A stretch of DNA of 39,626 nt from a virus. Position 1 is the first letter of the stretch; each line of letters begins with the position of its first letter. The notes beneath the pieces are model-generated. The model was not told the DNA's origin. It saw only the letters and a program-made list of their open reading frames with translations, and did no database searches. Positions 7,283 through 10,930 of this stretch are shown here, piece after piece. The stretch is taken from positions 1-39,626 of the IMG/VR virus record IMGVR_UViG_3300013306_000031, one strand, 5' to 3'. Both the position numbers and the translations under genes were made by a program.

Positions 7283-8752
7283 CTAACCAACAATTGCGTG
7301 TCTTTTCTTCCTGCCAGAAGCAGGGAGGCGACGTTTAGCGAACTTCAGCGCCCCGAAGTGGGCGCATGTGATGGAGACGATGGGAGATAGATCAACGTCA
7401 AGGCTCAGGCGGTTCCATTTGAACGAGCCCGGACGATTCTTGATCTGGTCTTGAACCGTATTCTTTGCCGAAAGATCAAGATGCTCCTGCCCAAAATGCG
7501 TGATCGAAGGGTGCTTCTCGACGGCCTCACGCAGCAACACGCAGGCCTGGGAATACTCATTGGCATCGAGAATCCGAACAAGCATCTTCTTGTTCTTCAA
7601 TGCGGCCTCCAATATCGGACGGGCCGGAGAGTATGCATCGATCACGACCGGGACGTGGCGTTTGGCGCGCGTCCATAGCCACTCCACAAGAGCAGTCGTG
7701 CCGGCCTCATCAAACGGCGCATCAGCGGCGACCTCAAGGTGCACGCCGCTATCATCCGAGAATGTCGCAACACCTATCGAGACCTTCGTGCGCTCCGGAT
7801 TCATATCCACGCCATAGGCAGCCACCGGCCACTCGGGATCAGGATGCTCGATGGCTAGGTCATCCCATTTCTTCGGAGTGAACGCCAGCTTGCCAAGCTG
7901 GATCTCATCCCAAATGCCAAGCGCCTCACGCATGAACGAATCAGGAGAAAGCTTCCGGCGCATGCGAAGCATCGCTGCTTCCTTCGTGCGCTGAGGGTAC
8001 GAAGGATTTGCCTTCCGCCATTGGGCGCGATCATCGGGATCAGCCTTAGGGTCGGCGCTGAATTCGATATACAGGGCATCAGGAGCTTCCCCATTCAGGG
8101 CAGCGCGGCGTGCATCCTGAAATATCTCAGACGGATCAATCGGCTTCGGCGGAGTGCCGATCATAATTGTCAACGCATTAGACGAAGCGTTCTGCGCTGG
8201 AATCATGTCGTCAATAGAGCGCTCAGTGAGAATCTGCGCCTCGTCAAAGACCACAACGTCAAGCTTCGTGAAACCACGCCCAAAGCCGCGCTCCCGGGCC
8301 CCAAAAACGACGCGTGAGCCGTTCTTGAACTCGATCTTCTGCTCACTGCCGTTATCCGGAGTGCGGTCAATATGCGGCGCCATTGTCGGCGTCGCAGCCA
8401 TCGACTTCATGCCATCGAAAGTCTCATCAGCAGTCGAAGCGCGGTGCGCCGTCCAAACCACCGTCAAGCCGGGATAGATGATGCACAAGGCAAAAACAAT
8501 CCAGCCGATCATGAACGTCTTGCCAACCTGGCGAGGAATGCTGATCGTCACGCCGCCGACAGTCGTCGCATACAGCCCATCAGCACCCTTGGACAGAATC
8601 AGTTGAGCCGAGCCCTGCTGCCACGAATCAAAGGTAATTCCGAGCTCGCGGCACGTATCCCGAACCGCCGGCCAACCTGTTGAAACAATTCCTTCCGGCA
8701 CAATCACATGCCGGGCAGACTCAAACAGCGTAGGGGTCGAACTCCTCGTCAT
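7283..8752 (-). CDS. terL: Terminase large subunit
   Basis: This 489-residue protein is the packaging motor and nuclease. The ATPase part shows Walker A IPRQVGKT (residues 72-79), Walker B LDVVVFDE (164-171) and the coupling motif IGT (198-200). The C-terminal RNase H-like nuclease part shows acidic residues in GVDMNPE (D316) and VVIDAYSPA (D372), with a further Asp cluster LDVDLSP near 455. It overlaps the small terminase gene by 32 bases and is followed after two bases by the portal. With an HNH endonuclease gene close upstream, a cohesive-end packaging strategy is likely. Confidence 0.95.
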   Translation of the reverse strand: MTRSSTPTLFESARHVIVPEGIVSTGWPAVRDTCRELGITFDSWQQGSAQLILSKGADGLYATTVGGVTISIPRQVGKTFMIGWIVFALCIIYPGLTVVWTAHRASTADETFDGMKSMAATPTMAPHIDRTPDNGSEQKIEFKNGSRVVFGARERGFGRGFTKLDVVVFDEAQILTERSIDDMIPAQNASSNALTIMIGTPPKPIDPSEIFQDARRAALNGEAPDALYIEFSADPKADPDDRAQWRKANPSYPQRTKEAAMLRMRRKLSPDSFMREALGIWDEIQLGKLAFTPKKWDDLAIEHPDPEWPVAAYGVDMNPERTKVSIGVATFSDDSGVHLEVAADAPFDEAGTTALVEWLWTRAKRHVPVVIDAYSPARPILEAALKNKKMLVRILDANEYSQACVLLREAVEKHPSITHFGQEHLDLSAKNTVQDQIKNRPGSFKWNRLSLDVDLSPIVSITCAHFGALKFAKRRLPASGRKKRHAIVG

Positions 8753-9026
8753 CAGTCTCAGCCGCCTTGCTCAGGTCATCACCCTCGGCCGCCTTCGATA
8801 GCTGATCAATCTCCTTCGAGATCTCACGCACCTGACGCGTCAAAGCAGCCAGGTCGCGGGCCAACGTATTTTCGCTCTCCATATGCGTCACCAAAATCAG
8901 GCGCATAGCCTTCAACTCATCAAGGCGCGTCCCAAACTCCGTAGCCTCACGCAAAGACATCGCCCGCGCAGGGACGTCATCCTCAGTAGCAATCCGCACC
9001 GGAGACAACTGCCTTTTTCCAGCCAC
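8721..9026 (-). CDS. terS: Terminase small subunit (probable)
   Basis: This 101-residue protein precedes and overlaps the large terminase gene. It has a basic N-terminal AGKRQLSPVRI, then a helical core (SLREATEFGTRLDELKAMRLILVTHMESENTLARDLAALTRQVREISKEIDQLSK) and an acidic end. The segment ARDLAALTRQVREISKEID matches the helical oligomerisation core seen in short actinophage small terminases. GTG 9026 is chosen because AGGTGG lies eight bases upstream; GTGs at 9038 and 9035 have none. It should recognise the packaging site, which may lie just upstream. Confidence 0.75.
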   Translation of the reverse strand: MAGKRQLSPVRIATEDDVPARAMSLREATEFGTRLDELKAMRLILVTHMESENTLARDLAALTRQVREISKEIDQLSKAAEGDDLSKAAETDDEEFDPYAV

Positions 9027-9120
9027 GTGAACCACCACCTAACTGATGAGACACCGCCGGCCATCTGTGGAAAACGGCGCATGAGTGAAACTGGCACTAT
9101 GCCAGTGGGTGGGCTAAGCC

Positions 9121-9440: not shown

Positions 9441-9743
9441 TCACCATTGGCGACTGGTCTTGATCGGCTTTAGTGCCACTACTTTCGAGTGGCCTGGCAT
9501 CTTATTCCCGCGCTTCTGATTGCACAGCCTGTGAGCCAGTCGGCAGTTCTTACGATCGAACGGTGAGCCGCCCCGAGATACCGGGATGACCTCGTCAACC
9601 TCTGGCGAGCCTGGCTGGCCATGCGGAAGCGTTTTATCCACCACGACGCTGCACAACCAGCAGTGCGTCTCTTCTCTGAGTACGCACGCCCTGATCTTGT
9701 CCCTCAGGCTGCCATTGGATCGGCGCGGGTTAGCCTTCGTTGC
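9441..9743 (-). CDS. HNH endonuclease (terminase-linked)
   Basis: This 100-residue protein is an HNH nuclease of the kind found next to cohesive-end terminases, where it takes part in genome end cleavage with the terminase. Motifs: zinc pair C-W-L-C near residue 29, VDEVIPVSRGG (about 50-60; Glu replaces the usual first His, as in many relatives), and NCRLAHRLCNQKRGNK (67-82). The ATG at 9743 lies inside the end of the SH3-like gene (14-base overlap), so coupling is likely. The longer upstream frame to 9857 is a shadow of that gene. Confidence 0.87.
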   Translation of the reverse strand, partial: ATKANPRRSNGSLRDKIRACVLREETHCWLCSVVVDKTLPHGQPGSPEVDEVIPVSRGGSPFDRKNCRLAHRLCNQKRGNKMPGHSKVVALKPIKTSRQW

Positions 9744-9906
9744 CATGCTCGGCGTCGATCTGATCGAGCAACGCAGTGCGCACAGCCCCGTCAGCGTCAC
9801 GCACAGTGAGCACATGGCCTTCAACCTCGGTAACGGTCCACGGCTGCCCGGCCGCACTAACGGTGTCGCCTACCTTGACGGCGGGCTCAGTGTCTCGTGC
9901 TGCCAT
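9730..9906 (-). CDS. Small SH3-like protein
   Basis: This 58-residue gene was read directly from the sequence. AAAAGGAG lies eight bases before ATG 9906. The protein has an SH3-like strand pattern: AVKVGDTVSAAGQPWTVTEV, then EGHVLTVRDADGAVRTALLDQI. Proteins of this form, often seen in actinophages, carry a KOW-like beta barrel and may bind nucleic acid or protein, but no role is established. It overlaps the HNH gene, and the gene-free structured region lies upstream in the same transcript. Confidence 0.8.
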   Translation of the reverse strand: MAARDTEPAVKVGDTVSAAGQPWTVTEVEGHVLTVRDADGAVRTALLDQIDAEHGNEG

Positions 9907-9959
9907 GGTGTGCTCCTTTTGGTTGGCGATCTACTAACTAGGCCGCGTTCTCGATTGTT

Positions 9960-10380
9960 GACCGGCAGTGCGTTCGATCTGGTGGGCTGGGGCGGCTTTG
10001 CACCGCCGACGATTTCAGGTCGCCCTCATTTATCCAGCCCTCCCGCGTTCATGTCCGCGGGCTATTCAGTTATGAGCGTGTTGTGCCAGGCCCCGGCTCG
10101 GCGCGCCTTACCGGGGTCCAGCGTTGCGATAGTCACCAGCTACCGCGCTTGCTTTCCCGCTATGCGGGGAAGTTTGCTCCTGCATGGAGTAGGCGCGTAG
10201 CGTCGCCTCGTTCTTAGACCGCCGTCAAGCTCGGTTCTCCGCAGTCCACCTAAGGACTACATCACCCGGCTTGCCGTTCGCCAGCACGTTTAGGAAACTT
10301 GCCCTAGTACCTGACAGCAGCCTCCATGCAGGAGGGTGTGTTGAGGCCGCGACGCATGGGGGTTGTCGCGGCTTCAAGAA
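9960..10380 (-). ncRNA. Candidate large structured RNA, unassigned class
   Basis: About 480 bases (9907-10391) hold no credible gene but contain a dense series of stems. From the minus-strand 5' side: 10341-10353/10365-10377 (13 pairs, one mismatch on minus); a long-range perfect 13-bp pair 10322-10334/10177-10189; inside it 10266-10270/10280-10284, 10241-10247/10254-10260 and 10191-10195/10204-10208; then 10156-10160/10164-10168, 10126-10132/10140-10146, 10091-10096/10111-10116, 10042-10047/10056-10061, and a three-way junction closed by 10034-10040/9984-9990. In four stems one pair is G-U only in the minus-strand RNA and a mismatch in the other, which supports minus transcription. No tRNA, tmRNA, RNase P or intron core was recognised. 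Confidence 0.5.
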
Positions 10381-10391
10381 TGTGGGGGGCG

Positions 10392-10871
10392 CTATGCGGC
10401 GCGGTCGGCGGCGTTGTGGGTGAACAACTCATTCCGCTTAGCGATCACCGCGGCCTCTGCTTCGTCAATGCTTGCGAATAGTCCAACATGAAACTTTCTG
10501 CCATGGTGGGTAACCTCAGCTCTCCACTTACCCCGAGTCTTCATCCATACGACTCCACGCACGCCAGACTTACTTAGCGCGGTTGCGCCTCGCCTATTCT
10601 GGCGATTTTGACTCGGCGTCGCTGGTCTCAGGTGGGCTGGATTTACGCACGATGTATTGAAGCATGTATGGTCAATCTCCATCAATGGGTCGATGGACCC
10701 GCGGTCAATAAGGTATGACACCCTATGCGCGCCAATCATTCGCCCGAGAATTCTGAACCGGCCATAGCCGCCTCGGTCGGCGTCAATCTTCGCGGTCCAC
10801 GTCCAGCAGTCGCCAGACTTATCTACCTTCGCCCAAAATCGTTCAATGTCCGCGGGAGATGTGCCATGCAT
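10392..10871 (-). CDS. HNH homing endonuclease with AP2 DNA-binding domain
   Basis: This 159-residue protein is a homing endonuclease of the HNH-AP2 type. The HNH part has AHRVSYLIDRG (48-58) and MEIDHTCFNTSCVNPAHLRPAT (64-85) with H68, C70, C75, N77 and H80; the AP2-like part is GVRGVVWMKTRGKWRAEVTHHGRKFHVGLFASIDEAE (about 103-139). The ATG at 10871 is preferred; AGGAGGA lies about 12 bases upstream, a rather long gap. That ribosome site can pair with an upstream loop. It is free-standing rather than inside a split gene. Such genes are mobile and need not serve the phage. Confidence 0.88.
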   Translation of the reverse strand: MHGTSPADIERFWAKVDKSGDCWTWTAKIDADRGGYGRFRILGRMIGAHRVSYLIDRGSIDPLMEIDHTCFNTSCVNPAHLRPATPSQNRQNRRGATALSKSGVRGVVWMKTRGKWRAEVTHHGRKFHVGLFASIDEAEAAVIAKRNELFTHNAADRAA

Positions 10872-10882
10872 GTCCAAGCGAT

Positions 10883-10930
10883 TCCTCCTAGGAATGCGAA
10901 AGGCCCGCACCTAGGAGGATGCGGGCCTTT
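10883..10930 (-). promoter_or_regulatory. Hairpin whose loop can mask the HNH/AP2 ribosome site
   Basis: On the minus strand an 11-bp stem (10930-10920 with 10909-10899) encloses a ten-base loop TCCTCCTAGG (10919-10910). This loop is the exact complement of CCTAGGAGGA (10892-10883), which holds the Shine-Dalgarno site of the next gene. The two pairings could form a pseudoknot or two alternative hairpins, hiding or freeing the ribosome site. The TTT after the stem also gives it a weak terminator look in both directions. Confidence 0.55.

Follow-up and report, generated by a model that had tools for sequence, protein, structure and literature searches.

A predicted minus-strand three-way-junction RNA with an exchangeable domain, from a widespread and apparently undescribed superfamily of phage-encoded structured RNAs

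The window analyzed here is the complete stretch of 39,626 nucleotides in the viral record IMGVR_UViG_3300013306_000031, which represents a phage of the Arthrobacter type. Near its terminase genes, approximately 485 nt carry no gene on the minus strand, extending from the stop of an HNH/AP2 endonuclease gene at position 10392 to the start of a small open reading frame at 9906. A plus-strand open reading frame (9586-10200, 204 amino acids) overlaps this stretch, and comparison with PHROG matched it to no family. The neighboring genes and the RNA elements described below are listed in Table 1. The RNA and the terminase and portal genes are all encoded on one strand of the window, and the closest terminase found was that of phage ArV2.

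Table 1. Genes and RNA elements at the locus (window positions; all features are read from the minus strand).
Feature	Position	Strand	Basis or remark
HNH/AP2 homing-type endonuclease, upstream neighbor	10392..10910	minus	Pfam HNH_3, weak AP2; PHROG 3593
HNH endonuclease, downstream neighbor	9441..9857	minus	
Terminase small subunit	8721..9038	minus	PHROG 1459
Terminase large subunit	7283..8752	minus	PHROG 9; 76% identity to ArV2 terminase
Three-way-junction RNA core, 158 nt	10177..10334	minus	z -6.86; 18-sequence covariation; R1 match
P1 5' strand, CUCCUGCAUGGAG	10322..10334	minus	Perfect 13-bp complement of 10177-10189
P1 3' strand, CUCCAUGCAGGAG	10177..10189	minus	Covariation and exact pairing
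P2 5' strand, base of exchangeable domain	10312..10321	minus	Double-sided changes in 9/10 pairs
P2 3' strand	10218..10227	minus	Covariation with 10312-10321
P2.1 element, GGUACUAGGGCAAGUUUCCUAAACGUGC, strongly conserved in A1 subtype	10284..10311	minus	Alignment; columns 25-32 and 19-48 covary
P2.2 hairpin; loop 10276-10274 is one pseudoknot strand	10267..10283	minus	Pair 50-63 with double-sided change in 9/18
Pseudoknot partner of 10276-10274	10232..10234	minus	90.7% of cells paired
P2.3 variable hairpin, UAGUCCUUAGGUGGACUG	10242..10259	minus	Predicted fold; homologues differ in sequence and length
Conserved linker preceding P3, AAGAACGA	10208..10215	minus	122-locus comparison
P3 universal hairpin, AGGCGACGCUACGCGCCU	10191..10208	minus	Common to all subtypes
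Separate hairpin element, AACGCUGGACCCCGG..CCGGGGCCUGGCAC	10073..10127	minus	Kept near right genome ends of many other Arthrobacter phages
Hairpin just 5' of tRNA-like fold, CCCGCGGACAUGAACGCGGG	10042..10061	minus	Similar leader before a tRNA in phage Hestia
D-armless tRNA-like fold, 61 nt	9980..10040	minus	Arms kept in Elezi homologue

Folding energies were compared with those of dinucleotide shuffles and expressed as z-scores. The whole region of 501 nt scored -4.38 on the minus strand versus -1.54 on the plus strand, the core scored -6.86 versus -3.36, and the 199 nt downstream of the core gave a z-score of -3.30. In homologues, many of the pairs that covary are G-U when read from the minus strand. 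The original prediction had described about 480 bases without a gene, an RNA folded from the minus strand and a 13-bp long-range pairing, and these points were borne out, the pairing being exact (CTCCTGCATGGAG with CTCCATGCAGGAG). What it had overlooked were the 10-bp helix P2, the pseudoknot and the division of the region into separate modules, namely the three-way-junction RNA, a hairpin element and a tRNA-like fold. Judged from these sequence data, the gene-free stretch almost certainly encodes a real minus-strand structured RNA that is a member of a shared family.

As modeled from the homologues, three elements of the RNA meet in a three-way junction: the closing helix P1, the conserved hairpin P3 and the exchangeable domain P2. 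Covariation was assessed in 18 aligned sequences of the window's subtype. In this set 88.9% of the cells of the tested structure (P1, P2, the inner hairpins, P3 and the pseudoknot) pair, and double-sided changes occur in 23 of 39 pairs. Double-change cells numbered 99, versus 35 in shuffles, and none of 500 shuffles reached the observed value; when partners were slid by one to three columns, pairing was only 32-43%. Changes on both sides were found in all nine aligned pairs of P1, in all except one of the ten pairs of P2 and, for the middle pair of the pseudoknot, in six sequences, so that the covariation through which the original prediction could be checked is present in both long helices and in the pseudoknot. 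RNAalifold found the same three-way junction when given no structure, and the scores of the subtype covariance model grade smoothly from close to distant relatives. The R1 model of the RNA scored the window at 158.6 bits, but the window belongs to the R1 training set. The window's copy has the features that mark the three-way-junction RNA, namely the helices P1 and P2, which change compensatorily among homologues, and the P3 core. Among the 122 distinct loci discussed below, the loop-closing positions of P3 are U-A in 73 and A-G in 48, which suggests a fixed non-canonical pair. Since the search pattern fixes most letters of P3, the conservation seen within it partly reflects how the loci were selected; two linker positions outside the pattern are more than 90% conserved in the 122 loci.

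The remaining modules lie downstream of the core. The hairpin element often immediately precedes an HNH gene or a small gene, and in BenchScraper the order of modules is swapped relative to that in the window. The tRNA-like fold, which was called by neither ARAGORN nor Rfam, comprises a 7-bp acceptor stem, a T-arm and a 5-bp anticodon arm whose loop reads CCUGAAA, and its ACCA end is encoded. The homologous arms in phage Elezi stand alone upstream of the DNA polymerase gene, and the acceptor stem is changed compensatorily relative to that of the window.

By blastn, Arthrobacter Gordonvirus phages carry the core in unannotated DNA close to their left genome ends (75-82% identity), and Acinetobacter phages SR and NL have it at 73% identity. 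It was also located in Microbacterium phages and, in a shorter form, in phages of Rhodococcus, Stenotrophomonas, Serratia, Erwinia, Pantoea and Achromobacter. The P3-core pattern ACRAGGCGWCNNYRCRCGCCTA matched at least 120 IMG/VR stretches versus 6 with its letters reversed, a control by which about 6 per 120 matches are likely to be due to chance. A longer pattern matched 14 times in 84,980 genomes, with Arthrobacter, Microbacterium, Brevibacterium, Enterococcus, Dyadobacter and Rhodanobacter among the matches. Altogether, the core was recorded in phages or prophages of Arthrobacter, Rhodococcus, Acinetobacter, Serratia, Erwinia, E. coli, Enterococcus and others, with kinship between distant subtypes resting on P3, the linker, P1 pairing and the shared architecture rather than on end-to-end alignment. 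A plasmid search returned a single weak match, located inside a coding gene. E. coli prophages and phage CUS-3 have a related copy, placed between the Q and holin genes; the CUS-3 copy is downstream of a promoter-like site after Q and folds no better than shuffles (z -0.51).

The distribution of the RNA is patchy. Kumotta carries it, and searches with the R1 model detected no copy in its genus mate MargaretKali or in ArV2; in one host genus, it was detected in only one or two of 18 genomes. This pattern fits accessory cargo. It also bears on the packaging role that had been called conceivable by analogy with phi29 pRNA, which contains a junction of helices. A packaging RNA of this kind, or a terminal packaging signal acting at the level of DNA, would be in keeping with the position of the RNA close to a genome end in several actinophages and near the terminase genes in the window. 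However, the RNA goes undetected in the close relatives just named, and several other carriers hold it away from the terminase genes, in tRNA clusters or beside lysis genes between Q and holin. Consequently the packaging analogy found no support, and we regard a packaging function as exceedingly improbable.

Over approximately 700 bp at their left genome ends, the sister phages Teacup and Tenno are nearly identical; the exceptions are a replaced P2 and a short differing stretch at alignment columns 72-80. P3 and the linker are unchanged between them, and in P1 one or two positions vary. By this comparison of sequences, the P2 domain has been swapped between close relatives. The whole of Teacup's first 720 nt (L002 1-720) gave a z-score of -9.9 against shuffles, indicating that the junction can form one domain of a larger RNA; the same 720 nt fold as a chain of long helices and are apparently one large RNA.

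Comparison of the 122 loci revealed that pairing of at least 7 bp between the bases following P3 and upstream sequence, as expected for P1, is possible in 62%, versus 17% in a mismatched control. A tRNA lies within 300 nt of the RNA in 41 of the 122, compared with 13 expected at random positions, and of 161 tRNAs within 1 kb all except one (160) are on the strand of the RNA; this link has to be read with the caveat that unrelated cargo, too, is drawn to tRNA clusters. The window has only the tRNA-like fold near its core. Among the loci P2 can take one of several compact folds, and in the folds predicted for Faunus, Kashira and AAS21 it encloses a tRNA-like sequence. A circularly permuted order was predicted for L056 and L059, where the tRNA-like sequence immediately precedes P2 on the 5' side and a loop closes P1. 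As read from the sequences of L060, L140 and others, P1 appears to be rooted in a tRNA-like fold, where it replaces the anticodon arm. Several side observations concern related sequences. In phage tRNA-like genes at L064, L103, L109 and L137 a long insertion replaces the anticodon loop and CCA is not encoded, and the core lies directly 3' of them. In the Achromobacter phage JWDelta (L016 2284-2668) the core is inside a match to permuted tmRNA, and just downstream of the core in Stenotrophomonas phage Jojan60 (L012 2581-2663) is an 83-nt tmRNA-like sequence with no tag frame, which may be compared with the tagless tmRNA known from phage DS6A (PMC11915505). The tRNA-His of Bauer (L182 341-418) is annotated as likely to contain an intron (aaacac).

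One reading of this variability is a decoy against host defense, in which P2, as a tRNA with an altered anticodon arm or a compact mimic, would soak up or block host nucleases or sensors that attack tRNA in the course of infection, and its exchange would mirror an arms race. The wholesale replacement of P2 between near-identical phages that keep P3 and the flanks, the odd or enlarged anticodon arms of many associated tRNA-like folds, and the accessory, patchy occurrence of the RNA are all consistent with such a decoy. However, P3 is kept from actinophages to E. coli phages, which a decoy alone would not need, and no matching defense system was identified; we therefore consider the decoy reading unlikely.

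The positions of the RNA could instead suggest a cis-acting element of the late transcript, through which antitermination, processing or translation of the late genes downstream would be controlled. In several temperate phages the RNA is near the start of the late genes, as with the Q/holin copies of CUS-3 (with its upstream promoter-like site) and the E. coli prophages, and in Elesar, Aeromonas 62AhydR11PP and the window it precedes terminase genes. Elsewhere, however, it is found in tRNA clusters with no common downstream gene, and a fixed role in cis is hard to square with circular permutation. Moreover, terminator-like hairpins with T-runs, read by eye, apparently follow the type-B copies L051, L057 and L150, which suggests that these are discrete RNAs. 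A cis-acting role thus appears quite unlikely, and an origin of the RNA from the late transcript is plausible, because it shares a strand with the terminase and portal genes in the window and lies behind the promoter-like site in CUS-3.

Scans with 4227 Rfam models, at both gathering and permissive thresholds, covered the window together with over 40 related loci. None of the models matched the core, and the only matches across these sequences were to tRNA, tmRNA or at chance level; the search of Rfam that the original prediction had left to be done thus places the RNA class outside that database. Specifically, there was no match to HDV-like ribozymes, group I introns or any other Rfam intron or ribozyme in the window or the related loci, and the readings as a permuted group I intron or a theta ribozyme were dropped for want of a supporting match. 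A catalytic RNA might nonetheless be imagined in which the invariant junction is the active site and the permuted forms represent different open stems, in the manner of hammerheads; the conserved junction nucleotides, the pseudoknotted domain, the permuted forms and the independence from host phylum would all suit it. Against this stand the unmatched ribozyme and intron models, an arbitrary P1 sequence and the fact that no conserved cleavage site was recognized, and we hold catalysis to be very unlikely. A search of open-licence papers (preprints lying outside it) yielded no description of this RNA. Considered together, these sequence-based results place the RNA in a widespread superfamily of structured RNAs encoded by phages, one that has apparently gone undescribed. 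An almost invariant core that turns up in actinobacterial, proteobacterial, Enterococcus and other phages without matching any of the 4227 families suggests that a common phage tool has been overlooked.

The function most likely to account for this RNA would be that of a trans-acting accessory phage RNA tied to tRNA or translation biology. Constancy of the core across bacterial phyla calls for a universal partner or an intrinsic activity, and the association with tRNAs points to the translation or tRNA machinery as that partner. We propose that the RNA may share a transcript with late genes or tRNA genes, owe part of its trimming to the tRNA-processing enzymes of the host, and act in trans. 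By comparison of the loci, P1 can stand free or arise from a tRNA-like fold, the whole RNA can occur in circularly permuted form, and P2, which differs between subtypes, can be a compact pseudoknotted fold, as in the window, or enclose a tRNA-like sequence. The constant P3 and linker would dock on a host component present in all bacteria, most likely in the translation or tRNA machinery, and P2 would be the swappable part that sets the effect. Our compromise estimate for this explanation as a whole, superfamily membership and action in trans combined, falls a little short of probable. The more specific idea of a phylum-crossing plug-in platform, in which a universal docking hairpin carries a cassette (tRNA mimic or compact fold) that is exchanged by recombination and retunes the effect, is a serious if tentative possibility, and an action linked to translation is possible but somewhat doubtful. 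The association with tRNAs, the presence of tRNA-like domains and the clean exchange of a domain between sister phages make both partner and role directly testable.

Several known RNAs invite comparison. The Pas sRNAs of E. coli prophages were set aside, since they are described as small RNAs that carry a terminator hairpin at the 3' end, and the description mentions none of the core's features. The phi29 pRNA resembles the window's RNA in being a phage RNA near packaging genes; it had no Rfam match in the window, and elsewhere the RNA described here shows no tie to terminase genes. Theta ribozymes, which are HDV-like and occur beside phage tRNAs (PMC10879173), are likewise phage RNA elements next to tRNAs. 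The tmRNAs, among them tagless ones of the DS6A type and permuted ones, share a tRNA-like fold in which other structure replaces the anticodon arm, as well as the existence of permuted forms; however, many core loci lack a tmRNA, and neither ARAGORN nor Rfam found one in the window. RNA C and RNA D of T4 (species 1 and 2) are similarly stable phage RNAs beside a tRNA cluster, and RNA C ends in a T-arm-like sequence. They were rejected as homologues, as neither has the AACGAGGCG..CGCCUA core and R1 finds nothing in the T4 genome.

The closest parallels in habit are GOLLD and ROOL. GOLLD is phage-encoded, is often near tRNA islands, can carry a tRNA and is bound by ribosomes in pull-downs, and ROOL is a phage or prophage RNA with pseudoknots near tRNA islands (PMC12286853). 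With GOLLD our RNA shares its proximity to tRNAs, well above the random expectation, the ability to hold a tRNA inside, as in the nested tRNAs of the predicted folds, and the combination of a 3' module that stays constant and a 5' part that varies; however, members of GOLLD are often longer than 800 nt and assemble into cages, as opposed to a core of approximately 150 nt here, and cmscan with the GOLLD covariance model gave no match in the window or related loci. The suggestion of a GOLLD-like or wholly new class, the better half of the earlier interpretation, therefore stands as regards the GOLLD-like habit and the absence from Rfam, and by Rfam the RNA is not GOLLD itself. ROOL is likewise a pseudoknotted RNA of phages and prophages near tRNAs, and differs in that the RNA here, which no Rfam model matches, carries an exchangeable domain on a small constant junction. 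The resemblance to GOLLD and ROOL is thus one of habit and not of membership: it is the RNA class that appears new, and as an orphan phage RNA near tRNAs it has company in GOLLD, ROOL and RNA C and RNA D of T4.
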